Assembly (NCBI RefSeq): GCF_002563695.1 | Contig: NZ_PDJI01000004.1 | Span: 2,852,001 to 2,916,000 of the forward strand | Source of the DNA: Georgenia soli | GTDB taxonomy: Bacteria > Actinomycetota > Actinomycetes > Actinomycetales > Actinomycetaceae | DNA: 64,000 bases | Direction: 5' to 3' | Shown here: one piece after another, positions 18,774 through 40,620 of the stretch | Layout: each line of letters opens with the position of its first letter | Numbering within the stretch: position 1 is the stretch's first letter | The notes under the pieces: generated by a model | Databases searched by the model: none | Seen by the model: only the letters and a program-made list of their open reading frames with translations | Told to the model about the DNA's origin: nothing | Program-made: the position numbers and the translations under genes

Positions 18774-18833
18774 GACGAACTGGCCGTTTTGGTTCAGATC
18801 GGTCCTTCCGTGAACCAAAATGGCCATCTCATG
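18774..18833. repeat. 60-nt palindromic repeat, copy A
   Basis: The inverted arms TGGCCGTTTTGGTTC (18781-18795) and GAACCAAAATGGCCA (18812-18826) pair over 15 positions, the one mismatch being a G-U wobble in RNA. The loop AGATCGGTCCTTCCGT is also conserved between copies. The element begins GACGAAC and ends CTCATG. Confidence 0.85.
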
Positions 18834-18913
18834 ACACCTGGCACCGGCACGGCGGCGGGACGCAGGTAGGCGCGCCGCACGCGTACTGCGATGTCGCTAC
18901 CGCCCGAACGGTT

Positions 18914-18973
18914 GACGAGCTGGACGTTTTGGTTCGGATCGGTCCTTCTGCGAACCAAAATGGCCAACTCGTT
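18914..18973. repeat. 60-nt palindromic repeat, copy B
   Basis: The arm GACGAGCTGGACGTTTTGG plus TTCG pairs with CGAACCAAAATGGCCAACTC plus GTT, with most positions matching. The loop is GATCGGTCCTTCTG. It is 80 bp downstream of copy A in the same orientation. Confidence 0.85.
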
Positions 18974-18983
18974 GGTCTTCTGG

Positions 18984-19027
18984 TGGCAGCGGCAGCGGCA
19001 CCGGCACCGGCCCCGGCACCGGCACCG
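18984..19027. repeat. GGCAGC/GGCACC hexamer microsatellite
   Basis: About seven hexamer units (GGCAGC twice, then GGCACC with one GGCCCC variant) run in tandem just upstream of the DUF559 gene. No function is apparent. Confidence 0.7.
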
Positions 19028-19131
19028 CCGACTCACGCCCGGGCGCGGAGCGGTGACTGCCCGCGGTGCACGTCCGTGCCAGGCGCGACGGTGCTGTGGA
19101 TAGAGCCAGAGCGGACGTGGCCCGAGGAACC

Positions 19132-20070
19132 ATGCTGCCGTCCATGGAGAACCGGGCCCTTGCCGAAGCCGACGAACGGCTGAGGCGGACGGCGGTGCTG
19201 GGCGTCTTCACGCTCCAGATGGCGTCGTCCGCGGGGTTGGCCCGCGGAGTGGTGCGTGGCCGGATTCGGGCCGGAGCTTGGGTGCACGTCGTCGGCGCGG
19301 CATTTACCGCCGCGGATCGTGCCCCTGGCGTCATCGATCCCGTCCGGCTCAGGGCAGTGGGCGCCGCGCTGACGTGGCCCGATGCCGTGCTGTGCCTGCG
19401 TACCGCTGCGATTCTGCACGGGATGCCGGTGCGCGACGACGGGCTGGCTCACGTTCTCGTGCCGGAGAAGCGACGGAAGAGCCGTGGCCTCGCGCCTCAC
19501 TATCTGACGGTCGACCGTCGTGAGGTCCGCCGGTTCCTCTCGTTCCGGATCACGAGTCCGCGGCGCACGGCGATCGACTGCTGCGCGCTGCTGCCGTACC
19601 AGGAGGCGGAGAGACTCATGGCGTGGGTGCGCACCAGGGACATACTCACGCTTCCTGAGCTGGTCGCCGCGACTGAGGAACGTCGTGGAAAGCCCGGTGT
19701 GGTGCAGCTGCAGCGCCTGCTCGCCGACACCCGCTCGGGAGCTCTGAGCGAGGCGGAACGCCGGTTGCACAAGATCTTGGGGGAAGCCGGCATCGGTGAC
19801 TGGGAGGCCGATCAACCCATCGTCGTGAACGGGCGGCTGCTCGCACGTGCCGACGTACTCTTCCGAGCCGCGCGGCTGATCGTCGAGGTAGACGGCCGGG
19901 CGGCGCACCAGGATTTCGACGCCGACCGGGAGAGGCTGAACGCCCTCACCCTGGCCGGTTACACCGTGCTGCGGTTCAGCTGGCGGCAGCTCGTGGACCG
20001 TCCCTGGTACGTGCGCGAGCAGATCGAGGCTGCGCTCAGGCGAGCCGGGGTGGGATCCGCACGAGGTTGA
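19132..20070 (+). CDS. DUF559-domain protein with AbiEi-like N-terminal part
   Basis: The 312 aa have two parts. Residues 1 to about 180 resemble the helix-turn-helix/antitoxin-like region of AbiEi-type proteins (VVRGRIRAGAWVHVVGAAF, then LTWPDAVLCLRTAAILHGMP). Residues from about 205 carry a Vsr/DUF559 PD-(D/E)xK nuclease-like core: RADVLF (Asp about 240), IVEVDG (Glu and Asp about 251-253), and YTVLRFSWRQLVDRP. Such proteins are common in actinobacteria as lone genes, and function is unproven. The ATG at 19132 is preceded by GAGGAA; a second ATG at 19144 is possible. No toxin partner lies next to it. Its stop codon falls inside palindromic repeat copy C. Confidence 0.75.
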   Translation: MLPSMENRALAEADERLRRTAVLGVFTLQMASSAGLARGVVRGRIRAGAWVHVVGAAFTAADRAPGVIDPVRLRAVGAALTWPDAVLCLRTAAILHGMPVRDDGLAHVLVPEKRRKSRGLAPHYLTVDRREVRRFLSFRITSPRRTAIDCCALLPYQEAERLMAWVRTRDILTLPELVAATEERRGKPGVVQLQRLLADTRSGALSEAERRLHKILGEAGIGDWEADQPIVVNGRLLARADVLFRAARLIVEVDGRAAHQDFDADRERLNALTLAGYTVLRFSWRQLVDRPWYVREQIEAALRRAGVGSARG

Positions 20071-20119
20071 GGTTTTGGTTCGAAACGGTCAACTTTCGAA
20101 CCAGAACGGCCATCTCTTC
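20060..20119. repeat. 60-nt palindromic repeat, copy C, overlapping a gene end
   Basis: The arms GTTTTGGTTCGAAA (20072-20085) and TTTCGAACCAGAAC (20094-20107) differ at one position around an 8-nt loop. Aligned with copies A and B, the element starts at CACGAGGTTGAG. It therefore supplies the last codons and TGA of the DUF559 gene, and could also act as its terminator. Confidence 0.8.
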
Positions 20120-20136
20120 GGTCCCACCGGTGACCC

Positions 20137-20205
20137 CACCACCGGAAGCCGCGTAGCCGCACCGCCGGAAGCCGCGTAGCCGCACCGCCGGAAGCTGGTG
20201 CCGCG
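20137..20205. repeat. 23-bp tandem repeat, three copies
   Basis: Three head-to-tail units (core ACCGGAAGCCGCGTAGCCG), the third diverging at its end. They fill the space between the DUF559 gene and yajQ, which converge. Confidence 0.8.
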
Positions 20206-20280
20206 CGGCCGGAAGCCGGTGTCCGCGCGGCACGTAGCCCCAGCCTGGGCTCGCCAGGGCGATCGCCAAGGCGCCCAGGA

Positions 20281-20311
20281 GGCTCAGCGGTAGTTGGGCT
20301 CAGCGGTAGTT
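20281..20311. repeat. Tandem duplication of the yajQ 3' end
   Basis: GGCTCAGCGGTAGTT occurs at 20281-20295 and again at 20297-20311, one base apart. The inner copy encodes the last codons and stop of yajQ. The outer copy lies just past the stop. Confidence 0.85.
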
Positions 20312-20797
20312 CACGAACTGCAGCGCCGCGTCGATGTCGTCGGCGCCCTTGAGCAGCGTGATGACCTGCTGCAGGTCGTCACGGCTCTTCGAGCTCACCC
20401 GGACCTCGTCACCGGTGATCTGCGCCTTGACGCCCTTCGGGCCCTCGTCGCGGATCAGCTTGGTGATCTTCTTCGCGTTCTCCTGGCTGAGCCCCTCCTT
20501 CAGGGAGCCGACGAGCCGGTACTCCTTGCCGGAGGCCCTCGGCTCGCCGTCGCCGAGGTCCAGGGCCTTGAGGGAGACGCCGCGCCGGATGAGCTTGGTC
20601 TGGAGCACGTCGAGCACCGCCTTGACCCGCTCCTCGGAGTTGGCGGTCATCGTCACGGCGTCGCCGGACAGGCTGACCGAGGCGCCGACGTTCTTGAAGT
20701 CGTAGCGCTGGGCGATCTCCTTGGCGGCCTGGTTGACGGCGTTGTCCACCTCCTGACGGTCCACCTTGCTGACGATGTCGAAGGACGAGTCGGCCAT
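20300..20797 (-). CDS. yajQ: YajQ family (DUF520) nucleotide-binding protein
   Basis: This small cytosolic protein has two ferredoxin-like RNP folds. Members bind nucleotides or RNA, and one is a cyclic-di-GMP effector in Xanthomonas; the role in actinobacteria is unknown. The 165 aa match the family end to end: [20 protein letters not shown] at the start, [22 protein letters not shown] in the middle, and the [13 protein letters not shown] end. AGGAG lies about 8 nt before the ATG at 20797. Confidence 0.95.
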
Positions 20798-20943
20798 GTC
20801 CGGGCTCCTGCGGTGTGAGTGCGTGACGGTCTGGATGTCCGAGACTGCCAGAAGCGACGGGCTGTGACGTTCGTCGCCCGGCGCGGGTTATCGGGCACCC
20901 CGGGGTTCTTGCTATCGTTCCATCTGCACCTTCCGAGGTGCGA

Positions 20944-21025
20944 GGCGAGTTGCCCGAGCGGCCAAAGGGAGCTGACTGTAAATCAGCCGCGGAATGCTTC
21001 GCAGGTTCGAATCCTGCACTCGCCA
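20944..21025 (+). tRNA. tRNA-Tyr (anticodon GTA)
   Basis: The acceptor arms GGCGAGT and ACTCGCC pair over seven bases with discriminator A at 21025. The anticodon GTA is at 20978-20980 within CTGACTGTAAATCAG. A long variable arm, as expected for Tyr, and GGTTCGAATCC in the T loop are present. The 3' CCA is not encoded. A TATCGT hexamer at 20913-20918 may be the -10. Confidence 0.95.
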
Positions 21026-21031
21026 CGGACC

Positions 21032-21061
21032 GGCCCACCGACGGATGACCGTCGTTGGGCC
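21032..21061 (+). terminator. Hairpin after tRNA-Tyr
   Basis: GGCCCACCGACGG and CCGTCGTTGGGCC pair with one mismatch around the loop ATGA, beginning 6 nt after the tRNA. No T tract follows. Confidence 0.6.
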
Positions 21062-21164
21062 GCTGTCATGTCCGACGGGGACCCGCCGCAGCACCGCGGC
21101 GGCGGGTTTCCGGAGGGGCGTGGCGGGTGTGAGAGGACTCACCCCCGTAGGCCCCGCCCCGGAT

Positions 21165-21194
21165 TTCACACCGGGGCACTCGGGCAGGTAGGCT
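21165..21194 (+). promoter_or_regulatory. Promoter of tRNA-Thr
   Basis: TTCACA (21165-21170) and TAGGCT (21189-21194) are separated by 18 bp. The predicted start falls a few bases before the tRNA at 21205. Confidence 0.6.
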
Positions 21195-21204
21195 CGTCCG
21201 CGCT

Positions 21205-21277
21205 GCCCCGATAGCTCAGTCGGCAGAGCGTCTCCATGGTAAGGAGAAGGTCAAGGGTTCGATTCCCTTTCGGGGCT
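21205..21277 (+). tRNA. tRNA-Thr (anticodon GGT)
   Basis: The acceptor GCCCCGA pairs with TCGGGGC and the discriminator is T. The anticodon stem TCTCC/GGAGA encloses ATGGTAA, giving GGT. The T loop GGTTCGATTCC is standard. CCA is not encoded. A small hairpin (ACCGCCGT/ACGGCGGT) follows at about 21290-21315 before tRNA-Met. Confidence 0.95.
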
Positions 21278-21327
21278 CTGGTCTGGAGGACCGCCGTATG
21301 ATTGACGACGGCGGTGCGTCAGGACGC

Positions 21328-21401
21328 GGCGGGGTAGCTCAGTTGGTGAGAGCGCACGACTCATAATCGTGAGGTCGCGGGTTCGAGCCCCGCCCCCGCT
21401 A
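21328..21401 (+). tRNA. tRNA-Met, elongator type (anticodon CAT)
   Basis: GGCGGGG pairs with CCCCGCT (first pair G-U) and the discriminator is A. The anticodon stem CACGA/TCGTG holds CTCATAA. It lacks the C1-A mismatch and the three G-C anticodon-stem pairs of initiators, so it is the elongator. An Ile2 tRNA (lysidine-modified) is a less likely reading. CCA is not encoded. TATGAT at 21297-21302 may be its -10. Confidence 0.93.
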
Positions 21402-21468
21402 CAGAGACCAGTGAATGACGAAGCAGCCGTATGGCCGCTCGCAACCGAGCCGAACGTGAGGAAAAGCC

Positions 21469-21639
21469 GTGGCCAGCAAGTCTTCTGACGTCCGCCCCAA
21501 GATCACCCTCGCCTGCGAGGTGTGCAAGGAGCGCAACTACATCACCAAGAAGAACCGTCGGAACAACCCCGACCGGCTCGAGCTGGCGAAGTACTGCCCG
21601 CGCTGCAACGCGAAGACCGCGCACCGCGAGACCCGCTGA
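21469..21639 (+). CDS. rpmG: Ribosomal protein bL33
   Basis: This 56-aa protein of the large ribosomal subunit starts at GTG 21469. It carries two CxxC pairs (CEVC and CPRC) that bind zinc, so it is the zinc-containing form of L33. The body [19 protein letters not shown] is diagnostic. A purine-rich GTGAGGAAAAG precedes the start. The order tRNA-Thr, tRNA-Met, rpmG, hadA matches that known in Mycobacterium. Confidence 0.96.
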
Positions 21640-21659
21640 CCGACGCGGTCGCGCCCCTC

Positions 21660-21665
21660 TAGTCT
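21660..21665 (+). promoter_or_regulatory. -10 hexamer for a leaderless hadA transcript
   Basis: TAGTCT lies 6 nt before the ATG at 21672, and there is no Shine-Dalgarno sequence in the gap. This spacing places the transcription start at the ATG. Confidence 0.5.
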
Positions 21666-21671
21666 GGGGCG

Positions 21672-22145
21672 ATGACCGAGTCCAGCACCCGCCCCACCGG
21701 CGTCGACAAGACGCTCGTGGGGCGTTCCTATGCCCCCACGGAGACGTACGACGTCTCCCGCGTCAAGATCGCGGAGATGGCCGCGGCCACCGGCGCCACG
21801 CACCCGGCCCACACCGACCCCGACGCCGCCTGGGCCCTCGGGTACTCCGACGTCGTGGCCCCGCCCACCTTCGCCGTCGTCCTGGCGCAGCGGGCCGAGC
21901 AGGCCTACGTCGCGGCCCCGGAGTCGGGCATCGACTTCTCGCGGGTGGTGCACGCCGAGGAGCGCTTCGTCCATCACCGGCCCATCGTGGCGGGGGACCG
22001 GCTGCGCACCACGGTGCACGTGGACAAGATCCTGGAGCGCGGCGGCATCACGCTGGTGACCACGCGCGCCGAGATCGCCGACGAGGCCGACGCGCCGGTC
22101 GCGACCGTGACGTCCGTCCTGGCCGTGAGGGGGGCCGAGAAGTGA
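21672..22145 (+). CDS. hadA: MaoC-like (3R)-hydroxyacyl-ACP dehydratase, HadA-type subunit
   Basis: This hotdog-fold protein of 157 aa belongs to the FAS1-type N-terminal dehydratase/HadA (UPF0336) family. It begins KTLVGRSYAPTETYDVSRVKI and includes ATGATHPAHTDPDAA, DVVAPPTFAVVL and FVHHRPIVAGDRL, all family hallmarks. In mycobacteria HadA pairs with the catalytic HadB to dehydrate 3-hydroxyacyl-ACP in fatty-acid elongation. An organism without mycolic acids would use the pair in another acyl pathway. It overlaps hadB by GTGA. Confidence 0.88.
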   Translation: MTESSTRPTGVDKTLVGRSYAPTETYDVSRVKIAEMAAATGATHPAHTDPDAAWALGYSDVVAPPTFAVVLAQRAEQAYVAAPESGIDFSRVVHAEERFVHHRPIVAGDRLRTTVHVDKILERGGITLVTTRAEIADEADAPVATVTSVLAVRGAEK

Positions 22146-22597
22146 ACGAGCAGAACGAGACCCTGGCCCGCGGCGCCCGGCCGCTGCTGACCGAGCTGGA
22201 GGCCGGCGCGGAGCTCTTCCGCCGCACCTACGCCGTCGACCGCGACCGCCTGGTGCGCTACGCCGGCGCGAGCGGGGACTTCAACCCGATCCACTACAAC
22301 GACCGCTTCGCCCACGAGGTCGGCCTGCCCGGGGTCATCGCCCACGGCATGCTCACCATGGGGCTGGCCGGCTCCGCCGTCGCCGACTGGGCCGGCGACC
22401 CCGGAGCCGTGGTCGAGTACGGCGTCCGCTTCACCCGTCCCGTCGAGGTGCCGGACCCCGGGACGGCCGAGGTCGAGGTGGCCGGCAAGGTGGGCGCCGT
22501 CGACCTGGGGGAGGGGTCCGTGCGGGTCGACCTCACCGTGACGTCCGGAGGCGTGACCGTCCTCGCCAAGGCGCAGGCGGTCGTCCGGCTGGGCTGA
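22142..22597 (+). CDS. hadB: MaoC-like (3R)-hydroxyacyl-ACP dehydratase, HadB-type subunit
   Basis: This is the catalytic hotdog subunit, 151 aa. The hydratase-2 motif reads YAGASGDFNPIHYNDRFA, with the Asp and His expected to activate water, followed by GLPGVIAHGMLTMGLAG. The GTG start at 22142 overlaps the hadA stop, so the two are probably made in equal amounts as a heterodimer. No hadC follows; the next gene is murB. Confidence 0.9.
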   Translation: MNEQNETLARGARPLLTELEAGAELFRRTYAVDRDRLVRYAGASGDFNPIHYNDRFAHEVGLPGVIAHGMLTMGLAGSAVADWAGDPGAVVEYGVRFTRPVEVPDPGTAEVEVAGKVGAVDLGEGSVRVDLTVTSGGVTVLAKAQAVVRLG

Positions 22598-22646
22598 GCG
22601 GCCTGCCTCACGCCGGCCGGGTCCTGCCCGGCCCGGCGGGGCGACG

Positions 22647-22652
22647 TAGCCT
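22647..22652 (+). promoter_or_regulatory. -10 hexamer for a leaderless murB transcript
   Basis: TAGCCT is 6 nt before the GTG at 22659, the same arrangement as at hadA. There is no ribosome site between them. Confidence 0.5.
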
Positions 22653-22658
22653 GGGACG

Positions 22659-23831
22659 GTGACCCAGAACTCCGGACACCTCGCCCCCGCGCCCGCCACG
22701 GTCGGTGATGCACCCGCCAGGCTGGCCGACCTCACCACGCTGCGCGTGGGCGGGCCGGTGCGCGAGCTGGTCGACGCCGCGACGGAGGCCGAGCTCGTCG
22801 ACGCGGTGCGTGCCGCGGACGACGCCGGAGCTCCCGTCCTCGTCCTCGGCGGCGGGTCGAACCTCCTCGTCTCGGACGAGGGCTTCGACGGCGTCGTCGT
22901 CCGGGACGCCCGGCGCGGGATCGACGGCGTCGCCGACTCCTCGTGCGCCGGGGCGAACCTCGTCGTCCCCGCGGGCCAGCCCTGGGACGAGGTCGTGGCC
23001 ACGGCCGTCGCCGAGGGCTGGATGGGCGTCGAAGCCCTCTCCGGCATCCCCGGCTCCACGGGGGCGACGCCGGTGCAGAACGTCGGCGCGTACGGCCAGG
23101 AGGTCGCCGAGACGCTCTCCTCGGTGCGCGTCTACGACCGCCTCGAGCACCGCACCCGCATGCTGGCGGTGGGCGAGCTGGGCCTCGGCTACCGCACGAG
23201 CATCCTCAAGCGGTCCCTGACCGACCCCGACGCCGGGGGTGGTCGGGTCTGGGGTCCGACGGGGCGCTACGTCGTCCTCGAGGTCTCCTTCCAGCTGCGC
23301 CTGGCCTCCCTCTCCGCCCCGGTCCGGTACGCCGAGCTGGCGCGCCGGCTCGACGTCGCCGTCGGGGACAGGGTGCCCGCCGCCCGGGTCCGGGAGGCCG
23401 TGCTGGAGCTGCGCCGCGGCAAGGGCATGGTGCTCGACGACGCCGACCCCGACACCTGGTCCGCCGGCTCGTTCTTCACCAACCCGGTGCTCACCACCGA
23501 GGAGGCCGACGCCCGCCTGCCGGAGGACGCCCCCCGCTTCCCGGTCTCCGACCACACCCGGATCGCCCAGATCGGCGCGGCCGCACCCGTGGTCGAGGGC
23601 CTGGTCAAGACGTCGGCGGCGTGGCTCATCACCCGCGCCGGGTTCGACAAGGGCTTCGGCGCCCCCGGCCCGGCCACGTTGTCGACCAAGCACACCCTCG
23701 CCGTCACGAACCGGGGCTCGGCCACGGCCGCCGACGTCCTCGCCCTCGCGCGCACCGTCCGCGACGGTGTGCAGGAGGCCTTCGGCGTCACGCTCGTGCC
23801 CGAGCCGGTGCTGGTGGGCGTCACCCTCTGA
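22659..23831 (+). CDS. murB: UDP-N-acetylenolpyruvoylglucosamine reductase
   Basis: This cytosolic FAD enzyme reduces the enolpyruvyl group to lactyl, giving UDP-MurNAc for peptidoglycan. The N-terminal FAD domain has LTTLRVGGP, VLGGGSNLLVSDEGFDG and IPGSTGATPVQNVGAYGQE. The catalytic serine is in SAGSFFTNP (near residue 270), and the conserved glutamate sits in VPEPVLVG at the end. The length of 390 aa matches actinobacterial MurB, which is longer than that of E. coli. The GTG start is supported by the hexamer 6 nt upstream and by the short space after hadB. Confidence 0.96.
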   Translation: MTQNSGHLAPAPATVGDAPARLADLTTLRVGGPVRELVDAATEAELVDAVRAADDAGAPVLVLGGGSNLLVSDEGFDGVVVRDARRGIDGVADSSCAGANLVVPAGQPWDEVVATAVAEGWMGVEALSGIPGSTGATPVQNVGAYGQEVAETLSSVRVYDRLEHRTRMLAVGELGLGYRTSILKRSLTDPDAGGGRVWGPTGRYVVLEVSFQLRLASLSAPVRYAELARRLDVAVGDRVPAARVREAVLELRRGKGMVLDDADPDTWSAGSFFTNPVLTTEEADARLPEDAPRFPVSDHTRIAQIGAAAPVVEGLVKTSAAWLITRAGFDKGFGAPGPATLSTKHTLAVTNRGSATAADVLALARTVRDGVQEAFGVTLVPEPVLVGVTL

Positions 23832-23839
23832 CGGGGCCC

Positions 23840-23927
23840 TCCGGGCGCCGGGTCAGCGGGCGCCGGCTCAGCGGTGCCGGGCCGGCGGACGCCGGCTCAG
23901 CCGGACGGCGGGTCAGCGGGCGCCAGG
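23840..23927. repeat. Degenerate 15-bp repeats after murB
   Basis: Variants of GGGCGCCGGGTCAGC recur five or six times between the convergent murB and GntR genes. No gene or clear terminator stem is present. Confidence 0.6.
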
Positions 23928-24302
23928 TCAGCGCCCGGTCATGAGCGCGCCGCGGACGAGGTCGAGGATGTCCGGGTCCGCCAGCCCAGCGGCGCGGGCA
24001 TGGCCGACGAAGACGTGCGCGGCCGCCCGGACGTCCGCCACCGCGACCGACGGCTCCGCCGCCGGTGCCACGACCGTGCCGGTGCGCCGCCGCGACACCA
24101 CCACCCCCGCGGCCTCGAGCTCCCGGTAGGCCCGCTGGACCGTGCCGACGGCGACGCCCAGGTCGGCGGCGAGGTCCCGCACCGTGGGGAGGCGGTCCCC
24201 GGCGACGAGCGTGCCCGCCGCCACGAGGGCGGACACCTGGGCACGGATCTGCTCGTACGGCGGGACCCCCGCCGAGAGATCGACCGAGATCCGGCCGCTC
24301 AC
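23928..24302 (-). CDS. GntR-family regulator, short YtrA-like type
   Basis: This DNA-binding repressor of 124 aa has an N-terminal winged helix-turn-helix: PPYEQIRAQVSALVAAG, LPTVRDLAADLGVAVGTVQ and RRTGTVV (residues about 10-75). A short helical C-terminus (about 50 residues) is too small for the FCD or UTRA ligand domains, as in the YtrA group. The GTG at 24302 overlaps the stop of the upstream membrane-protein gene. The pair probably forms one operon that the regulator controls through the palindrome at 25238. Confidence 0.88.
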   Translation of the reverse strand: MSGRISVDLSAGVPPYEQIRAQVSALVAAGTLVAGDRLPTVRDLAADLGVAVGTVQRAYRELEAAGVVVSRRRTGTVVAPAAEPSVAVADVRAAAHVFVGHARAAGLADPDILDLVRGALMTGR

Positions 24303-25216
24303 GGCCGCACCGGGCCGACGGCGACGGTCTCGCGCCCGGGCCGTGGGTCTCCCGGGGTGAACGCCTGCGCGGCAGCCACGAGCGACCCGACCCCGACCGG
24401 CGCAGCCACCGCCACGGCCAGCCAGGCGGCCAGCGACCAGCCGGCGTTGCCGAGCGCGGCCGCGGCGACGAGGATCGCGGCGGCCGCCTCGCCGCCCACG
24501 AAGAGCTGCACCCCGCCGAGGACCCGGCGGGCGCTCGTGCGGCGGAGCCGGAGGTCGTCCTCCCGCAGCGTCCCCGTCACCGCCGGCCGGCGGGCGACGA
24601 GGTGCAGGACCCACGCCGTCCCGCCGAGGACGAGGACGAGAGCGAGCAGCAGCGGCACCGCGTACGGCGTACCCGGGTAGGGCCCCGAGGCGCCGCCTCC
24701 GATACCGGCCGCCGCGTCCTCCGGCGTGATCAGCACCGGTACCGCGCGGCCGGACTCGTCCGCGGTCGAGATGAAGAGGGCCAGGGCGACGGCGAGCACC
24801 GCCGACGTCGCGAGCAGCAGGCCGAGGCGTGCACCCGTGAGGTCGCGCACCGTCCGCCGCCGCAGCGCCGCGCTGCGCACCGTCCCCGCGGGCCGCGGCC
24901 AGGTGCTCTCGCCGACGGCGTGCACCGCCAGATGGACGAGTGCGCCGCACGCCGGACCGAGCGCGGCGACCAGCCCGGGCGCGCCCGGGACGAGCCGCGC
25001 GCCGTTCCCGGCGCCGAGAACGGCCACGACGGCGACCGCGATCCCGCCCGCCAGGCCGAGCGCAGCCGTGGCGTTCTCGTGCCTGCGGGCGGCGGCGAGG
25101 GTGGCGCTCGGGGTGTTCTCCGGCCGGCTCCCGTGCCCCAGGCGGGCGACCCAGGTGGCGAGCACCGCCCCGAGCGCGACCGGCACGAGCACGAGGAGCA
25201 GCAGCGAGACGGCCAT
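24299..25216 (-). CDS. Unknown multi-span membrane protein beside a GntR regulator
   Basis: This protein has 305 aa and about seven hydrophobic segments, from LLLLVLVPVALGAVLATWVA at the N-terminus to LAAWLAVAVAAPVGVGSLVAAA near the end. I see no catalytic or transport motif. Small GntR regulators are often encoded with a DUF1648-like or ABC-permease-like membrane protein, and this fits that pattern only by context. The ATG at 25216 has a weak GGTGG site. The last codon overlaps the regulator's GTG. Confidence 0.8.
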   Translation of the reverse strand: MAVSLLLLVLVPVALGAVLATWVARLGHGSRPENTPSATLAAARRHENATAALGLAGGIAVAVVAVLGAGNGARLVPGAPGLVAALGPACGALVHLAVHAVGESTWPRPAGTVRSAALRRRTVRDLTGARLGLLLATSAVLAVALALFISTADESGRAVPVLITPEDAAAGIGGGASGPYPGTPYAVPLLLALVLVLGGTAWVLHLVARRPAVTGTLREDDLRLRRTSARRVLGGVQLFVGGEAAAAILVAAAALGNAGWSLAAWLAVAVAAPVGVGSLVAAAQAFTPGDPRPGRETVAVGPVRP

Positions 25217-25237
25217 GGGGCTTCCACCTTCAATGAA

Positions 25238-25249
25238 TCAATGCATTGA
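25238..25249. promoter_or_regulatory. Candidate GntR operator
   Basis: TCAATGCATTGA is a perfect 12-bp palindrome 22 nt upstream of the membrane-protein ATG on the minus strand, in an AT-rich island within GC-rich DNA. A partial extra half (CATTGA) adjoins it. The position suits autoregulation by the GntR protein. That it is the operator is inference. Confidence 0.5.
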
Positions 25250-25261
25250 CACAATGGAGCG

Positions 25262-25400
25262 AGTGTGGCGCGCCCGGCGCCGGCCGTCAAGGGGTGTGGC
25301 GCGCACGGCGCCGGCCGTCAAGGGGTGTGGCGCGTCCGGCGCCAGGCGTCGAAGGGTGTGGGCGTGTGGGCCTCGACGCCGAGGGGTGTGGCGGGCAGGA
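25262..25400. repeat. 31-bp tandem repeat
   Basis: Units beginning GTGTGGCGCGC recur at 25263, 25294 and 25325 with period 31, then decay over one or two further units. It occupies the space between the hydrolase gene end and the GntR operon promoter. Confidence 0.85.
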
Positions 25401-25409
25401 CCCTCAGCG

Positions 25410-26180
25410 TCAGGGTTCGGCCGGTGACTCCCACTCTGCGCCGAGCTCCCGGACGGCCGACCGCACCGCCGCGAGGAGGTCCGCGTCACCGAGGACCCGG
25501 AAGTGCCCGGCGCCCGCCAGCCGTACGTTCCGCCGGGCGCCCGCCAGCTCGCCCGTGCCGGGGATGTGCGGGTCCCACGACGGCGCGACCGCCACGATTC
25601 GCGCGTTGACCGCCCGCTCCCGGGCGAGGGCGAGGACCTGACGGTCGCGGGGCGAGAAGTGCCGCACGGCCGAGCCGGGCGGGAACAGCCGTGCGTAGGG
25701 GGAGCCGGCCCAGGGGGTGGCGACGGCGACCATGCCGGCCACCCGTGCGCCGTCGTCGGCGAGCATGAGGGTCTTCCCGATGAGCCCGCCCTTGGAGTGG
25801 GCGACCAGCACCACGCCGGTGAGGTCGTGCTCGTCGAGGTACTCGGCGGCACGCGCAGCCGCGTCGGTGACGGGCCTGCGGTTGATGCCCAGCGTGCTCA
25901 GGACGTGGACGGGGTGCCCGGCGGTGGCGAGGTGGGCGGCCAGGGGCTCGAGGAAGCGCCACGTCTCGTAGACACCAGGCAGGAGGAGCGCCGGGACGTG
26001 GGCGGCGGCCCGGTCGGGGCGGTCCGTGCCCCCGGGGGACGAGTCTCGCGCGGAGGAGGGCGGGGACAGGTACCGGGCGGGGTCCGTGCGCCGGCCCAGC
26101 AGCGCCCGCGCCTCGTGCCGCAGCGCGTAGGCGTAGTCGGCGGCGCGCACCCGGGGGCGCAGCCAGGCGAGCGGCCTCAC
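25410..26180 (-). CDS. Alpha/beta hydrolase, lipase-like
   Basis: This hydrolase of 256 aa has the nucleophile elbow AHSKGG (Ser129), an early LLLPGVYETW that would form the oxyanion region, and a late His in GAGHFRVLGD. The acid is probably the Asp in APSWDPHIPG. The AHSKGG elbow is seen in secreted and cytosolic actinobacterial esterases/lipases. There is no signal peptide here, and the substrate is unknown. The GTG at 26180 overlaps the stop of the upstream hydrolase, and longer readings enter that gene. It is the last gene of the add operon. Confidence 0.85.
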   Translation of the reverse strand: MRPLAWLRPRVRAADYAYALRHEARALLGRRTDPARYLSPPSSARDSSPGGTDRPDRAAAHVPALLLPGVYETWRFLEPLAAHLATAGHPVHVLSTLGINRRPVTDAAARAAEYLDEHDLTGVVLVAHSKGGLIGKTLMLADDGARVAGMVAVATPWAGSPYARLFPPGSAVRHFSPRDRQVLALARERAVNARIVAVAPSWDPHIPGTGELAGARRNVRLAGAGHFRVLGDADLLAAVRSAVRELGAEWESPAEP

Positions 26181-28050: not shown

Positions 28051-28129
28051 CTCCGTGAGTCTGCCACCGTGGCGTCCACGAGGCCGTGTCCGACCGGTAC
28101 GGGACGCCGGAACGTGGTCAACTTGCCCC

Positions 28130-31488: not shown

Positions 31489-31604
31489 GGCGGGCCCATA
31501 CGAGGCGACCCGTCGAACGAGGCGGGTCCGGGCGAAAGCCGTCCCGGCCGCGTGAGGCGGGCCGGGCGTGAGACGACCCGGCCGTGTGCGGGCGGAAGGC
31601 GTCG

Positions 31605-32276: not shown

Positions 32277-32552
32277 CTTCCCTCCGCGGTTCCGGTTCCG
32301 GACAGTCTGGCACCGTTCGTCCGTCGGGCCCGGGACATGGCGAGATCCGCCGCGCCGCCGCGGCAGTCCGACGCCGCCGCGCTCGAGGGGCCCTGCCGCT
32401 GAGGCCCTCCACGTCGCCTGTGACCGGAGCCGAGTGCGCCCGCCGGCACGCCAGGTTTCGGCCACCCGGGGCTGGATGGAGGAGACCGGAGGCACTAGGT
32501 TGCGTGCAATCCGGGTTCCGGACAGGCCGGGGCCGAGACCGAGGGGGACGGC

Positions 32553-33977: not shown

Positions 33978-34001
33978 CCAGGGCTCCGGCGGCAGCGGGC
34001 T

Positions 34002-34029
34002 CCCCGGCGGGCAGGCCCGCCCGCCGGGG
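34002..34029. terminator. Bidirectional hairpin between symporter and kinase genes
   Basis: CCCCGGCGGGC and GCCCGCCGGGG are perfect 11-bp arms around a 6-nt loop, 24 nt after the symporter stop and 43 nt before the end of the convergent kinase gene. Confidence 0.75.
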
Positions 34030-34071
34030 AACCGCCGCTGCGGACTCGTCAGGTCCGAGCGGCCCCGCCTG

Positions 34072-35553
34072 TCACGCCCGGGCGGCCTCGTCGGTCGAGG
34101 CGACCGGCTCCTCCGACGGGCGCGGGTCGACCTCCACGTCCACGGCCGGCAGGTCCAGCAGGAAGAGCGACCCGGCGCCGGGGTGGGAGTCCACGCGCAC
34201 CGTGCCCCCGTGCGCCTCGGCGATGGCCGCCACGATCGCCAGCCCCAGCCCCGCGCCCTCGCGGCGTCCCGCCTCGCCGGGTGCGCGGGCGAACCGGTCG
34301 AAGATGCGCTCGCGCTGCTCCGGTGCGATGCCGACGCCCTCGTCCCGGACCCACAGGTGCAGCCGGTCGCCGTCCAGCGCGCACCCGATCGCCACCGTCG
34401 AGCCGTCGTCGGAGAACTTCACCGCGTTCGCGACCAGCTGCAGCATCGCCTGGGTGAGCCGCTGCGCGTCCACGCTCGCCTCGGCCTCGAGGCGCTCGTC
34501 CACCCGCCACCGGCGCTCGCCGAGCGGCCGCGCCTGGTCGAGCACGTTGTCGATCAGCAGCCCCAGCGAGGCGGGGGCGGGTTGGACGAAGTCCGGCTGC
34601 TCGGACCGGGCCAGCATCACGAGGTCGTCGGCGAGGCGGTGCATCCGGTCGAGCTCGCTGAGGGCCAGCGCCTTGGTGGCGGCCGTGTCCGCGGGGTCGG
34701 CGGGATCCATGAGCTCGAGGTGACCACGGACGATGGTGATCGGCGTACGGAGCTCGTGGCCGGCGTCGTCGAGAAGCCTGCGCTGGGAGGAGAAGGCGTC
34801 CTCCAGGCGGGCCAGCATGGCGTTGAAGGTCCGGGCGAGGTCGCTGAGGTCGTCGGTGCCCGTCACGTCGATGCGGCGGGACAGGTCCGTCTCGGAGATC
34901 GTCTCCGCCGTCTCGCGGAGCTGGCGCACCGGTCGGAGGAGCCGCCCCGACAGCAGCCACCCGACGACGGCGAGCACCGCGAACGAGACGGCGCTGACGA
35001 GGGCGTAGGTGCGGAACGTGTCGGTCACCGACGCCTGCTCGGCGGCGCGGTCGAACGCGACGACGAGGGCACCGACGCCGACGTCGTCCACGGTGACCGG
35101 GATCAGCGCGTAGCGGTACTCGGCGGCCGCGGTCGTCACGGACGCGATCCGTCCCGAGCCGGAGCCGGACGCGGCCTCGAGCTGGTCGGTCAGGTGGGTG
35201 ACGAGCTCGGCGTCGTCCGCCAGGGGCAGGCCCGAGGGCATGGTGTACTCCAGCCGGCCGTCGACGAAGCCCACCATCCCCTCGCCGGGGCCGGGCACCT
35301 CCCGCACCATGCCGTCGTAGATGATCTCGCGGGCGTCGGCGCCGGCCGTGCGTGCCGCGTCGTCCGCGAAGGCGGAGAACTCCTCGGCGGTGCGGTGCAG
35401 GCTCGCGTCGACGACGTCGTCGACGCGGTCACGCTGCAGCACGAAGGCGGTGCCGCCCGCCACGAGGAGCGTGAGCCCGGTCAGGGCCAGCACCAGCACG
35501 AGGATGCGGGCGCGCACGGTCGTGCCGCGAGGGTTGCCACCCGTCGTCGCCAT
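34072..35553 (-). CDS. Sensor histidine kinase
   Basis: This membrane kinase of 493 aa has one transmembrane helix at about residues 16-39, an external sensor of about 140 residues, and a second helix at about 183-203. A HAMP linker (RPVRQLRETAETISETDLS), the H box DDAGHELRTPI (H266), an N box with LVANAVKF, and the G boxes DEGVGI and GAGLGLAIV follow. All catalytic boxes are intact. The start is fixed by GGAGGAGGAG before ATG 35553; a longer reading to 35763 runs over the aspC terminator. It most likely phosphorylates the regulator at 31605-32276. Confidence 0.94.
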   Translation of the reverse strand: MATTGGNPRGTTVRARILVLVLALTGLTLLVAGGTAFVLQRDRVDDVVDASLHRTAEEFSAFADDAARTAGADAREIIYDGMVREVPGPGEGMVGFVDGRLEYTMPSGLPLADDAELVTHLTDQLEAASGSGSGRIASVTTAAAEYRYALIPVTVDDVGVGALVVAFDRAAEQASVTDTFRTYALVSAVSFAVLAVVGWLLSGRLLRPVRQLRETAETISETDLSRRIDVTGTDDLSDLARTFNAMLARLEDAFSSQRRLLDDAGHELRTPITIVRGHLELMDPADPADTAATKALALSELDRMHRLADDLVMLARSEQPDFVQPAPASLGLLIDNVLDQARPLGERRWRVDERLEAEASVDAQRLTQAMLQLVANAVKFSDDGSTVAIGCALDGDRLHLWVRDEGVGIAPEQRERIFDRFARAPGEAGRREGAGLGLAIVAAIAEAHGGTVRVDSHPGAGSLFLLDLPAVDVEVDPRPSEEPVASTDEAARA

Positions 35554-35660
35554 CGTCTCCTCCTCCGCCCGCCGCGCTCTGCCGAAAACGCTCCCGGCGG
35601 GTCCTGCGGTTCCCTTCCGGCCGGTGCGCGCCGATCGTCCCACCGATGGTGACGCACGCG

Positions 35661-35678
35661 GATGAGACGGGGATGAGA
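35661..35678. promoter_or_regulatory. GATGAGA direct repeat upstream of the kinase
   Basis: GATGAGA occurs at 35661 and again at 35672, an 11-bp step (one helical turn) as OmpR-family dimers prefer. It lies about 110 bp upstream of the kinase ATG. A role in autoregulation is inference. Confidence 0.4.
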
Positions 35679-35710
35679 GGAGCCCGGGACCCGTCAGGGT
35701 CCCGGGCTCC
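35679..35710 (-). terminator. Terminator of the aminotransferase gene
   Basis: Two perfect 14-nt arms (GGAGCCCGGGACCC and its complement) enclose the loop GTCA, 22 nt past the aminotransferase stop on the minus strand. It separates that gene from the kinase downstream. Confidence 0.75.
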
Positions 35711-35731
35711 TTCCCGACGGCGCAGGGGGCC

Positions 35732-36943
35732 TCAGGCGAGCAGCTCCTGGATGCGGCCGACACCCTCCACGAGGTCGTCGTCGCCCAGCGCGTAGCTCAG
35801 GCGCAGGTAGCCGCTGGGGCCGAACGCCTCGCCCGGCACGACGGCGACCTCGACCTCCTCGAGGATCAGCTCGGCGAGCTCCGCCGAGGTGGTGGGCGTG
35901 CGGCCCCGGATCGTGCGGCCCAGGACGCCCTCGACGGACGGGTAGGCGTAGAACGCGCCGCGGGGCGTGGGCAGCGTGACGCCGTCGATGGCGCGGAGCA
36001 TCTCCACCATGGTGCGGCGGCGGCGGTCGAACGCCGTCCGCATGTTCTCGACGGCGGAGAGGTCGCCGGTCAGGGCCGCCACGGCGGCGCGCTGGGAGAC
36101 GTTGGCGACGTTGGAGGTCAGGTGCGACTGCAGGTTCGTGGCCGCCTTGATGACGTCCTGCGGGCCGATCATCCAGCCCACGCGCCAGCCCGTCATCGCG
36201 TACGTCTTGGCGACGCCGTTGAGCACGATCGAGGTGTCGACCAGCTCGGGGACGACCCGCTGGATCGGGGTGAACACCGTGTCGTCGTAGACGAGGTGCT
36301 CGTAGATCTCGTCGGTGATCACCCATACCCCGTGCTCCACCGCCCAGCGGCCGATGGCCTCTGTCTGCTCGGGGGAGTAGACGGCGCCGGTCGGGTTCGA
36401 CGGTGAGCAGAACAGCAGCGCCTTGGTCCGCTCGGTGCGGGCCGCCTCGAGCTGCTCGACCGTGACGAGGTACTCCTGGTCGGCCCCGGCGAACACCTCC
36501 ACCGGGGTGCCGCCCGCGAGCGTGATGGCCTCGGGGTAGGTGGTCCAGTACGGGGCGGGCAGCAGCACCTCGTCGCCCGGGTCGATGATGGCGGCGAACG
36601 CCTGGTAGACGGCCTGCTTGCCACCGTTGGTGACGAGGACGGAGTCGGGGGAGACCTCGTAGCCTGAGTCGCGCAGGGTCTTCGCGGCGATGGCCTCGCG
36701 CAGCACCGGCAGCCCCTTCGCCGGGGTGTACCGGTGGTTGACCGGGTCCTTGGCGGCGGCGATCGCGGCCTCGACGATGTAGTCGGGCGTGGGGAAGTCA
36801 GGCTCGCCGGCGCCGAAGCCGATCACCGGACGGCCCGCGGCCTTGAGGGCCTTGGCCTTGGCGTCGACGGCGAGCGTCGCCGACTCGCCGATCGCGGCGA
36901 GCCGGGCGGAGACACGGGACTTGGATGTGGTGGATGCGCTCAC
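35732..36943 (-). CDS. aspC: Aspartate-type aminotransferase (class I/II, PLP)
   Basis: This cytosolic PLP enzyme transfers amino groups between aspartate or related amino acids and 2-oxoglutarate. In its 403 aa the PLP lysine is K246 ([16 protein letters not shown]), with N183 in SPSNPTG, D211 in TDEIYEHL, and the C-terminal arginine in [20 protein letters not shown] marks the subgroup I gamma enzymes common in Gram-positives. The GTG at 36943 begins [17 protein letters not shown], as in relatives. A reading to 37204 would run through the tRNA-Trp promoter region. It is divergent from tRNA-Trp. Confidence 0.93.
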
Positions 36944-37220
36944 AAGGCCTATCGTGGCACGCGCCCATCTGGTGGTCACGGGCCGTTCGGTCACCGGGCG
37001 GGCAGCACCTTCTGGCCCCCGGGCTGACGGCAGCCTCGGGCACCGGCGGACGGCCTCCGCGGCACGGTCCGAGCGGAGGGGACCACGTGTGACGAGGCTC
37101 CCTGCGGGGCGGGTTCGACCAAAAGCCCCTCGACCACGTACACTCGACGCCGGTGGTTGACGTCCGCCATGCTGAAGCGTGCCCGTGCGGGTAGGTGAGA
37201 GCATGGGGGTAGATCACCGA

Positions 37221-37296
37221 AGGGCAGTGGCGCAATTGGTAGCGCACCGGTCTCCAAAACCGGCGGTTGTGGGTTCGAGTCCCTCCTGCCCTGCCA
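37221..37296 (+). tRNA. tRNA-Trp (anticodon CCA)
   Basis: AGGGCAG pairs with CTGCCCT and the discriminator is G at 37293. Encoded CCA follows at 37294-37296, unlike the three tRNAs near 21 kb. The anticodon CCA is at 37254-37256 in CCGGTCTCCAAAACCGG. Its place before secE matches trpT in other actinobacteria. Confidence 0.96.
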
Positions 37297-37410
37297 GGAC
37301 TGCACCTCCAGACGGAGGATGTGGACGTCCTGATGGCTTCGCCGCACGGCGAGCCGGAGCCGTCCGACCGGGGCGGTGTCGGACCGGGCCGATACGTAAG
37401 GAAGCAACCT

Positions 37411-37680
37411 GTGAGCGAGTCTGCGAGCGCGACGTCGGGGCGGCCCGAGCGCGCCGCGAGCGCGGGCGGGGCGACCACGAAGAAGAAGCGTGGCCTCTTC
37501 GGCCGCATCGCGCTCTTCGTGCGTCAGGTCATCGCCGAGCTCAAGAAGGTCGTGCGCCCGACGCGCAGCGAGCTGATGACCTACTTCGTCGTCGTCCTCG
37601 TCTTCGTCGCGGCGATCATGGCCTTCGTCGGTCTGCTCGACCTGTCGTTCGGTCGGCTCGTGCTGTGGATCTTCGGCTGA
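37411..37680 (+). CDS. secE: Preprotein translocase subunit SecE
   Basis: This is an essential subunit of the SecYEG protein channel. It has 89 aa: a Ser/Ala/Arg-rich N-terminus, the amphipathic helix [19 protein letters not shown] that is the family signature, and a single transmembrane helix ([20 protein letters not shown]). The GTG at 37411 follows AAGGAAG. An upstream reading from 37334 would extend into the tRNA spacer. Confidence 0.95.
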
Positions 37681-37756
37681 CTCCCATGACGCCGTCGGTC
37701 CACGCCGGCAGCCGGCCGACCCAGTAGCCACCCACCGACCAGAAAGCAGGTCCCCT

Positions 37757-38662
37757 GTGCCTGAGGAAACTCTCGAGCCCCAGAACGTCGAGGAGACGTC
37801 GCTCGAGCACGGGCAGCCGGACGCCCCGGCTGCCGGCGACGCCGACGTCGGTGCTGCCGTCGAGCCCGACCAGGCCGGAGCGGACCTGACGGACGCCGAG
37901 GAGTCCGACGAGGACCTCGCCGCCGACTCCGAGGAGGCCGACGAGGCGCTCGCCGCGGACACCGCGGAGTCGGACGAGGCGCTGGCCGCGGACGTCGAGG
38001 GGGCGGAGCCCGCGACCGACGAGGCCGCCGCCGAGCCGGAGGCCGAGGAGGACCCGCTGGAGGCGTTCCGCAAGGAGCTCAGCCGGCTGCCGGGCTACTG
38101 GTACGTCGTGCACACCTACGCCGGCTACGAGAAGCGCGTGAAGGCGAACCTCGAGAACCGCATCCAGAGCCTCAACATGGAGGACTACATCTACCAGGTC
38201 GAGGTGCCCATGGAGGAGGTTGTCGAGATCAAGAACGCCCAGCGCAAGCTCGTCAACCGCGTCCGTGTCCCGGGCTACACCCTCGTCCGCATGGACCTGA
38301 CCGACGAGTCCTGGGGCGCCGTGCGCCACACCCCGGGCGTCACCGGCTTCGTGGGCAACACCCACCAGCCGGTCCCGCTGACCGAGGACGAGGTCTTCTC
38401 GATGCTCGCCCCCACGGTCCAGGCCGCGGCCCCGGCCACGTCCGCCAAGTCGGCCACCGCCGGCGGCGGCGCGCAGCCGACGCCCATCCAGGTGGACTTC
38501 GAGGTCGGCGAGTCGGTCACCGTCACCGACGGCCCCTTCGAGACGCTGCCGGCGACCATCTCGGAGATCAGCCCGGAGAGCCAGAAGCTCAAGGTGCTCG
38601 TCACGATCTTCGGCCGGGAGACCCCGGTCGAGCTGTCGTTCTCGCAGGTCGCCAAGATCTGA
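37757..38662 (+). CDS. nusG: Transcription antitermination factor NusG with acidic N-terminus
   Basis: It binds RNA polymerase and controls pausing, Rho termination and coupling to ribosomes. The NGN domain starts at about residue 115 ([18 protein letters not shown]), and [17 protein letters not shown] and [10 protein letters not shown] follow. The KOW domain is at about 250-301 ([19 protein letters not shown]). Before NGN lie about 110 residues rich in Asp, Glu and Ala, typical of actinobacterial NusG. The 301 aa compare with 181 in E. coli. Start GTG 37757. Confidence 0.97.
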
Positions 38663-38732
38663 GCCGAGGCGCGACAGCGTCTGCCGGCCGACCGCCGGCG
38701 GGTATCCCAGGAAGAACCGTTAGGACCCGAAC

Positions 38733-39164
38733 ATGCCCCCCAAGAAGAAGGTTGCAGGCCTGATCAAGCTCCAGATCCAGGCCGGCGCCGCGACCCCGGC
38801 GCCGCCGATCGGCCCCGCGCTGGGTCAGCACGGCGTCAACATCATGGAGTTCTGCAAGGCGTACAACGCGGCCACGGAGGCCCAGCGCGGCAACGTGATC
38901 CCGGTGGAGATCACGGTCTACGAGGACCGTTCCTTCACCTTCGTCACCAAGACCCCGCCGGCCGCCGAGATGATCAAGAAGGCCGCCGGTGTGGCCAAGG
39001 GCTCCGGCACGCCGCACACCGCCAAGGTCGGCAAGATCACCCGTGAGCAGGTGCAGGAGATCGCCCGCACCAAGCAGGAGGATCTCAACGCCAACGACAT
39101 CGACGCCGCCGAGAAGATCATCGCCGGCACCGCCCGCTCCATGGGCATAACGGTCGAGGGCTGA
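38733..39164 (+). CDS. rplK: Ribosomal protein uL11
   Basis: This large-subunit protein lies at the base of the stalk, where it binds 23S rRNA in the GTPase centre and is needed for the stringent response and thiopeptide sensitivity. It has 143 aa. The N-terminal [20 protein letters not shown] with its conserved prolines and the C-terminal rRNA-binding domain ([37 protein letters not shown]) are intact. It starts at ATG 38733, in an operon with rplA. Confidence 0.98.
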
Positions 39165-39253
39165 CCGAACAACCCGTACGACGGCGCCCCGGCGCCGTGA
39201 AGTGGCAGGGTCCGCGCGGACCCGCAGACCACGACTGCAGAAGAGAGAAGCAG

Positions 39254-39970
39254 ATGGCAACGCGCAGCAAGAACTACCGCAAGGCCGCCGAGCGCATTCA
39301 CGACGGCGAGCTCTACGCGCCCCTCCAGGCCGTTCGTCTGGCCAAGGAGACCGCGACCACCAAGTTCGACTCCACCGTCGAGGTCGTCTTCCGCCTCGGC
39401 GTCGACCCCCGCAAGGCAGACCAGATGGTGCGCGGCACCGTCAACCTGCCGCACGGCACCGGCAAGACCGCTCGGGTCCTGGTCTTCGCCGTCGGTGAGC
39501 GGGCCAACCAGGCCATCGAGGCCGGGGCGGACGAGGTCGGTGGCGACGAGCTGATCGAGAAGGTCGCGGCCGGCTACACCGACTTCGACGCCGCCGTGGC
39601 GACGCCGGACCTCATGGGCAAGGTCGGCCGCCTGGGCCGCGTGCTCGGCCCCCGTGGCCTCATGCCGAACCCGAAGACCGGCACCGTGACGATGGACGTG
39701 GCCAAGGCCGTGAACGACATCAAGGGCGGCCGCATCGAGTTCCGGGTGGACAAGCACTCGAACCTGCACTTCATCATCGGCAAGGCCAGCTTCGACGAGA
39801 CGAAGCTCGTGGAGAACTACGCCGCGGCGCAGGAGGAGATCCTCCGCCTCAAGCCGGCCAGCTCCAAGGGCCGCTACATCACCAAGGCGACCGTCACCAC
39901 CACGATGGGCCCCGGCATCCCGCTGGACGCCACCAAGACGCGCAACCTCACCACCGAGGACGCCTCCTGA
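39254..39970 (+). CDS. rplA: Ribosomal protein uL1
   Basis: This two-domain protein of the L1 stalk controls E-site tRNA release. In many bacteria it also represses its own L11-L1 operon by binding mRNA; no such site is evident here. The 238 aa contain [20 protein letters not shown] and [16 protein letters not shown], both family signatures. The ATG at 39254 follows AAGAGAGAAG. A strong terminator follows the gene. Confidence 0.98.
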
Positions 39971-39994
39971 CCAGGTGAGCTGAACCAGGTTCGA

Positions 39995-40041
39995 CGACGA
40001 CGGCCCGGACCTTCCGCAGGGAAGGTGCCGGGCCGTCGTCG
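39995..40041 (+). terminator. Terminator of the rplK-rplA operon
   Basis: A stem of about 20 bp (CGACGACGGCCCGG with ACCTTC against GAAGGT with GCCGGGCCGTCGTCG), one bulged base and a 6-nt loop, 25 nt past the rplA stop. Confidence 0.8.
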
Positions 40042-40116
40042 TGCCTGAGGCCCTAGACCTGAGGTTCGGGGCCTGGGACCCCGGTCCACCCTCGGTACGC
40101 GTCCTCACCGAGGGAG

Positions 40117-40176
40117 GACCAGATGGCCAGAATGGTTCGCATCGAACCGTTCTGGAAGCAAATCCTGACCTCGACC
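40117..40176. repeat. 60-nt palindromic repeat, copy D
   Basis: CCAGAATGGTTCG (40127-40139) and CGAACCGTTCTGG (40143-40155) pair at 12 of 13 positions around the triloop CAT. This is a tighter hairpin than in other copies, formed by the conserved loop sequence GCATCGAACCG. Confidence 0.75.
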
Positions 40177-40276
40177 TGGACGTCGACCTTGGCCTCGACG
40201 TCGACCCAGGCCTCGACGGCGACCTTGGCCTTGACGGCGACCCAGGCCTCGACGTCGACCCAGGCCTCGACGTCGT
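40173..40276. repeat. 18-bp minisatellite
   Basis: Tandem 18-bp units of the form GGCCTCGACGTCGACCCA begin at 40191, 40209, 40227, 40245 and 40263 (last partial), with a degenerate unit before. Variants exchange CCA/CTT and GTC/GGC, as expected after slippage and drift. Confidence 0.85.
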
Positions 40277-40313
40277 TCCTGTCCGGTCGATGGTCGCTGG
40301 GCACTCGTCAGGC

Positions 40314-40620
40314 GACGAGTTGGCCGAAATGGTTCGCATCGGACCGTTCCCTAACCAATTTGTCGACCTCGACCCGTCGTCGCCGGACTCCGGGCAGCGA
40401 CGGGCGACGAGTTGGCCAAAGTGGTTTGCATTCGGACCGTTCGCTGACCAATTCGTCCGCCTCGTCTGGTCGCTGGCCCCTGGGTGACCGACGGGCGACG
40501 AGTTGGCCAAAGTGGTTCGCATCGGACCGTTCGCTAACCAATTCGTCCGCCTCGTCTGGCCGCTGGCCCCTGGGTGACCGACGGGCGACGAGTGCGGGGA
40601 AGTGGATCGGATCGCCGGAC
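40314..40620. repeat. Tandem array of 60-nt palindromes (copies E, F, G and a remnant)
   Basis: Elements start with GACGAG at 40314, 40406, 40497 and 40587, a period of 92, 91 and 90 bp. E, F and G span about 60 nt each and end CTCGAC or CTCGTC, complementary to their first six bases. The core is TGGTTCGCATCGGACCGTTC followed by a variable CT and AACCAAT. The 30-bp linkers between F, G and the remnant are nearly identical. The fourth unit is decayed. Confidence 0.85.

Follow-up and report, generated by a model that had tools for sequence, protein, structure and literature searches.

The stretch of DNA analysed here (the window) comprises 64,000 nt of the Georgenia soli genome (assembly GCF_002563695.1, contig NZ_PDJI01000004.1, positions 2,852,001 to 2,916,000 of the forward strand) and carries seven palindromic elements of about 60 nt, which lie around a DUF559 gene between a Peptidase_M48 gene and a convergent DUF520 gene (which we take to be YajQ) and between the ribosomal protein genes rplA and rplJ (Table 1). 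An alignment confirmed the seven copies and the common layout that a preliminary description of the window had reported for them. Scanning the window with a left-arm/loop pattern gave six matches where 0.09 were expected, and scanning with an outer-arm pattern gave nine where 0.15 were expected, neither number being reached in any of 100 shuffles; the alignment and the two scans with their shuffled controls rule out a chance origin of the seven copies.

Table 1. Palindromic copies and neighbouring features of the window; the gene set was adjusted by hand (DUF559 gene added, one spurious open reading frame (ORF) removed).
Feature	Position	Strand	Remarks
Peptidase_M48 gene	17779..18645	+	5' of first cluster
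Family copy, 60-nt class	18774..18833	+	128 nt 3' of M48 peptidase stop; 18 Watson-Crick + 1 G-U of 23 pairs
Family copy, 60-nt class	18914..18973	+	genome's top match to model R1, 78.1 bits
DUF559 gene	19066..20070	+	between first-cluster copies; variable in genus
Family copy	20060..20119	+	left arm carries DUF559 stop codon 20068-20070; convergent with DUF520 gene
DUF520 gene	20300..20797	-	convergent, 3' of first cluster
rplA (ribosomal protein L1)	39254..39970	+	5' of second cluster
Ordinary G+C-rich hairpin	39994..40042	+	directly 3' of rplA; retained in G001; outside the family
Degenerate family copy, 59 nt	40117..40175	+	3' of rplA; found by eye and pattern, missed by model R1; 11/23 pairs
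Family copy, 60-nt class	40314..40373	+	rplA-rplJ spacer
Family copy, one additional base	40406..40466	+	within 91-nt tandem duplication
Family copy	40497..40556	+	within same 91-nt tandem duplication as 40406 copy
rplJ (ribosomal protein L10)	40940..41461	+	3' of second cluster

Six of the seven copies pair well in a 23-bp register around a 14-nt loop, with Watson-Crick and G-U pairs numbering 19 (18774), 21 (18914), 18 (20060), 17 (40314), 18 (40406) and 18 (40497), while the degenerate copy at 40117, which is one base short, pairs poorly in the common register (11 pairs) and has an alternative fold. Fold z-scores of the seven range from -2.5 to -5.3. The copies are not independent, because those at 18774 and 18914 (84% alike, 140 nt apart) are local duplicates, as are the two members of the 91-nt tandem duplication at 40406 and 40497. 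The stop codon said to be supplied by one copy is indeed the TGA of ORF 19066-20070, located in the left arm of the 20060 copy. Two other features that had been described hold within the window only. The conserved loop is common to its clusters and differs in copies listed elsewhere, and the single orientation gives way genome-wide to 13 places on the plus and 7 on the minus strand by the better-scoring strand (model R1, below; 20 places, with 2920752, inside a gene, excluded and 40117 missed by the model). Orientation is itself weakly defined, since several copies are nearly symmetric.

In order to follow the family beyond the window, two covariance models were used, R1 from ten copies of the G. 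soli genome (G000) and R2 from 52 copies of the genus, the latter alignment using 52 of 73 hits; the other 21, which were weak, carried indels, were coding or came from another genus, were omitted. R1 finds many further places in G000 and in the genus, and R2 matches all nine Georgenia genomes searched (G000 and G001 to G008) at E 0.01 or less. Counted over both strands, on which a palindrome usually matches twice, these matches number 42 in G000, 41 in G007, 32 in G001, 25 in G004, 24 in G006, 21 in G005, 19 in G002, 11 in G003 and 2 in G008, the last being weak (best E 0.0023). At least 90 copies from eight species were listed (to about E 1e-6), at least 21 of them in G000, and the window copies are thus far from the only ones. 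Outside the genus, R2 at E 1e-6 with stricter filters matched only three among 393 further genomes from the class. One of these, G414 from another family of the same order, carries two hairpins (L210 and L212) with the skeleton CGAAGTCGCGCAA.TGGTCGT, possibly a sister family of the Georgenia repeat. A scan of named genomes for the exact skeleton returned 15 stretches, seven of them in G. thermotolerans, G. subflava and Georgenia sp. EYE_87; the arms of the eight non-Georgenia stretches form 19 of 19 pairs in Blastococcus and a Rothia metagenome-assembled genome (MAG), 14 and 15 in two Pseudonocardiales MAGs, and 11-14 in the rest. Other long hairpins were also seen, one with shared ACAACGGYGAGGRTTCGGTGC arms at gene ends in G001 (L263:3252-3301) and G000 (L281:1571-1619), and unlike ones at L261:13911, L219:17963 and L285:5656; these, too, are possible sister families of dispersed palindromes.

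Copies measure about 50-62 nt, with 23-nt arms around a loop of 4-5 nt (50/51-nt class) or about 14 nt (60-nt class). Each arm runs from GACGAG through N-T-N-G and a variable block to TGGT by the loop, with the inverse in the other arm; the bases CGAG..T.G......TGGT are near-invariant, and the remainder of the arm varies yet pairs. The claim that the arms differ while pairing is kept found no backing in the first ten G000 copies (five from the window), where covariation was absent (79.6% of cells paired, 78.9% when shuffled). It is strongly supported by the 52-copy genus alignment, where 87.0% of cells are paired as opposed to 73.1%, cells changed on both sides number 205 as opposed to 94, and the covariation score is 0.390 as opposed to 0.176 (0 of 500 shuffles in each case), with registers slid from the true one scoring at most 0.129. 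Because relatedness can inflate covariation, right arms were also swapped within species, whereupon Watson-Crick pairing in eight variable columns dropped from 0.731 to 0.599 (0/2000); with the 17 G000 copies taken by themselves, the drop was from 0.603 to 0.439 (3/2000). Additionally, 16 hand-chosen orthologous pairs, some with a copy in common, showed two-sided changes at 25 positions (7.9 expected), with pairing present in both species at 20 of the 25, along with 58 one-sided changes, 40 of which create or destroy a pair. This excess of two-sided changes together with the many one-sided ones indicates that pairing has been kept, imperfectly, during evolution in place, which may reflect selection or the template switching described in PMC8794818.

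In several species the variable arm middles fall into lineage dialects. Distances over arm columns 7-16 were computed for 84 of the 90 listed copies and averaged 0.355 between orthologues (30 pairs chosen by hand, with two sites contributing many of them), 0.262 between the members of these pairs and their same-species paralogues, and 0.421 between those members and unrelated copies of the other species; orthologues were nearer to each other than paralogues in 10 of the 30 pairs and nearer than unrelated copies in 20. Mean same-species distances were small in G004 (0.147), G002 (0.175), G003 (0.183) and G001 (0.251), larger in G007 (0.363), and scarcely below the distances to other species in G000 (0.443), G006 (0.443) and G005 (0.46). 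One dialect is common to G001, G002 and G003 (0.176 to 0.266 between species), so that dialect tracks lineage but not strictly species. Arm middles therefore track lineage more than site in several species, an effect that is weak in the window's own genome, and orthologues keep their likeness at several sites between close species.

Placement was assessed with gene calls from our own codon-usage script, which also underlie the hairpin counts. Forty-one of the 90 listed copies lie in convergent spacers, 39 in tandem and 6 in divergent ones, and 4 overlap genes; the family is mostly intergenic, with 86 copies clear of called genes. Compared with 137 background spacers of at least 60 nt (20 convergent, 82 tandem, 35 divergent), convergent placement is in excess (p = 1.8e-7) and divergent placement in deficit (p = 3.5e-4). 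The repeats are a genuine dispersed hairpin family at gene ends in Georgenia. Long hairpins generally mark gene ends in these genomes, occurring in 21 of 82 spacers between convergent genes, 62 of 305 between tandem genes and 7 of 130 between divergent genes, and the copies seem to replace such ordinary hairpins in tandem spacers: another long hairpin was present in 2 of 32 copy-bearing tandem spacers compared with 10 of 28 other spacers at the same loci (p = 0.008), and in 2 of 34 compared with 40 of 138 when the background came from long stretches in four genomes (p = 0.0035). The neighbouring genes themselves have no functional class in common; 24 of them in G000 match 45 Pfam families, and each of the 25 families listed comes from one gene only.

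Comparison of sites between species revealed both persistence and turnover. At the M48-DUF559-DUF520 locus, copies occupy both matching spacers in G001, G002, G003 and G004 and one spacer in G007, and the M48-DUF520 site of G008 lacks the DUF559 gene as well as a copy. At least nine of 17 copy-bearing G000 spacers, matched by their flanks, also bear a copy in G001. As for the other eight, the site at 1956727 has a diverged hairpin at its G001 counterpart, the G001 rplA-rplJ spacer is shorter by about 475 nt, lacking the copies and keeping the ordinary rplA hairpin, the copy at 2736770 lies within about 190 nt missing from G001, gene order is broken at 1924882, no match to 1811342 was found among the G001 stretches compared, and three are unplaced. 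The linker of the FolB-HPPK fusion gene is shorter in G000 and has no copy. No clean empty site with a target-site duplication was seen in the three sites aligned.

Several observations concern individual sites. Likeness of the DUF559 gene between species is 68-74% (80% for a remnant in G003), compared with 81-88% for its neighbours; the gene is missing from its site in G008 and has homologues elsewhere in G005 and G006. As a partner of the repeat it was rejected, other DUF559 genes having no copy nearby among the matches listed. An 18-bp tandem repeat of the GACCTSGNCCTSGACGKC type occupies window positions 40167-40274, in the part of the rplA-rplJ spacer that separates the 40117 copy from the 40314 copy; G001 has neither this repeat nor the copies. 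Furthermore, G006 has about 5.9 kb more than G005 at L224:10316-16184; this DNA contains one long ORF (~1,800 codons) and directly adjoins a family copy located at the 3' end of a gene with an RNB domain (RNase II-type).

Taken together, these results suggest, with a probability that we put at roughly 45%, that the copies are a Georgenia family of palindromes at gene 3' ends which serve as bidirectional terminator-like or 3'-end-protecting hairpins and have spread by copying. Once transcribed, a hairpin would terminate transcription or protect the mRNA from either side, and since it would serve the mRNA end from either side, its pairing would be kept while the arm middle drifts. Copies would spread within lineages by a copying process that needs no REP-associated tyrosine transposase (RAYT; REP, repetitive extragenic palindromic) and is REP-like in outcome, and such copying within lineages would give rise to the dialects. 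We favor the bidirectional transcript-end hairpin because the copies sit at 3' ends, keep their pairing as they evolve in place and seem to exchange with ordinary hairpins, and a copying process is needed as well because of the dispersal, the gain and loss of copies, and the dialects. Judged from sequence, the copies probably act as transcript-end hairpins.

A number of observations weigh against this proposal. The rplA-rplJ cluster, absent from G001, sits 3' of an ordinary hairpin; the FolB-HPPK linker contains a copy in G001 and G004 (two copies), within a coding sequence; and, among orthologues, the 40 one-sided changes by which a pair is gained or lost exceed the 20 compensated ones. The median distance from the upstream stop is 105 nt for copies as opposed to 31 nt for ordinary hairpins, and copies have no T-run (T 0.154 in the 8 nt 3' of 39 tandem copies), though the lack of one in ordinary hairpins here as well (T 0.179) speaks for the proposal. 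Restricted to the four long-background species, the tandem contrast loses significance (2/16, p = 0.24), and convergent spacers exhibit no contrast with long stretches (9/39 and 8/28), the comparison with the same loci (9/32 and 3/3) having too small a control number. On the transcribed strand of tandem copies, the surplus of G-U over A-C (62 and 45, p = 0.06) is a mere hint.

The dispersal, the lineage dialects and the copies missing at matching sites would also be expected of selfish, non-autonomous palindromes like REP elements or miniature inverted-repeat transposable elements (MITEs), moved in trans by some enzyme, tolerated at gene ends, purged from promoters and without host function, an account that would also accommodate the copies adjoining indels of neighbouring genes, the presence in a coding linker and the scarcity in divergent spacers. 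We nevertheless regard it as unlikely, if still the most credible of the alternatives, since no Y1 transposase of the RAYT superfamily (PF01797) was found in any of the nine Georgenia genomes (the control was positive in 5 of 14 known genomes), which extends to the genus what had been noted for the window, since no clean empty site with a duplication appeared among aligned sites, and since the copies in spacers shared by G000 and G001 go with compensatory change in place, which a repeat that is simply tolerated would not need. No insertion sequence partner with shared ends and no target duplication, the marks of a MITE, was found, although neither could be searched thoroughly.

The near-invariant bases in both arms, and arm middles that follow lineage over site in several species, might instead point to a protein that recognises CGAG and TGGT, the fixed bases, in either duplex or extruded-hairpin form and has drifted with lineage, in the service of chromosome organisation, termination or processing. 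This we consider improbable: every dialect has the same fixed bases, and it is the variable middle that covaries, so a factor would have no need to change; there is no excess of single arms; and no candidate factor turned up, though no search for one was made. Just as doubtful is a genus-specific 3'-end system in which a trans-acting factor, for termination, mRNA-end processing or copying, would read the folded hairpins via CGAG and TGGT, its recognition drifting by lineage and the copies of a lineage shifting to one dialect even at orthologous sites. Least probable of all is covariation without selection, in which replication template switching copies arm onto arm in otherwise neutral copies, a mechanism described in PMC8794818 and consistent with several fully paired copies with differing middles, but one that leaves the 3'-end placement, the fixed bases and the dialects unexplained.

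Other identities were rejected. A coding origin is contradicted by the 50-nt form, which shifts the frame that the 60-nt form leaves open, and by the 86 of 90 copies outside called genes; integron-like cassettes by insert edges that do not match two copies, even where extra genes adjoin some copies; and a phage origin by the lack of any exact-skeleton match in viral contigs. Searches of Rfam 15 with window positions 17500-42200 and 12 further loci brought only tRNAs to the gathering score, and no published description of such a family was found in the open-access literature, searched mostly by titles and abstract openings; in part of those searches the papers listed never mention Georgenia.

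DNA uptake sequences of the Neisseriaceae form inverted pairs at gene ends. They resemble the Georgenia repeats in having lineage dialects (PMC3630211, PMC2397512), and differ in that the repeats are few, have a variable paired middle and show no excess of single arms (47+43 pattern matches in G000, 42+34 for the reversed control), which led us to reject this identity. The dialect pattern of G004, which resembles common coding words and so has a high background, occurs 56 times in G004 and 25-47 times in the eight other genomes; the surplus would roughly equal the 20 arms contributed by the ten copies listed for G004.

The family adds to a high-G+C actinobacterial genus a covarying, RAYT-free set of dispersed palindromes whose dialects occur at partly conserved sites. 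Should the hairpins prove to be transcript ends, the family would exemplify a dispersed repeat as a replaceable terminator; should they not, it would point to a copying mechanism yet to be found. With REP elements, as PMC3733652 describes them, the repeats share dispersal as intergenic palindromes 3' of genes, mostly in convergent or co-directional spacers (80 of 90 listed copies are convergent or tandem), lineage-specific types, and occasional presence within genes or as stop codons. The same source gives GTAG/CGTC-tagged REP elements as 20-40 bp long, with CGTC stems of 8-9 bp and an unpaired tag at the stem end, and leads one to expect a RAYT, a Y1 tyrosine transposase, in genomes with the GTAG kind. 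In Georgenia, by contrast, the element is about 50-62 nt with a stem of ~23 bp, the terminal GACG/CGTC bases pair together so that no unpaired tag is left, and at most about 20 copies are listed per genome; these differences and the lack of a Y1 transposase exclude membership in the tagged REP families. The earlier suggestion of selection for structure or a REP- or MITE-like origin is thus borne out in part, the family being genome-wide, mostly intergenic, covarying, and gained or lost between species; its covariation argument does not hold on the first ten copies, and membership in the tagged REP families falls. With intrinsic terminators, U-poor ones included, the copies share a stable hairpin 3' of the stop codon (by fold z-scores and placement), often common to convergent genes and seldom accompanied by another long hairpin in tandem spacers, and they differ in the motif common to unrelated genes, the missing T-run and the longer distance from the stop, termination being inferred only. 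The family is sound and stands near both REP elements and terminator hairpins; its odd feature is the lineage dialects: an arm sequence that varies by lineage is unusual, yet near to known kinds of repeat.

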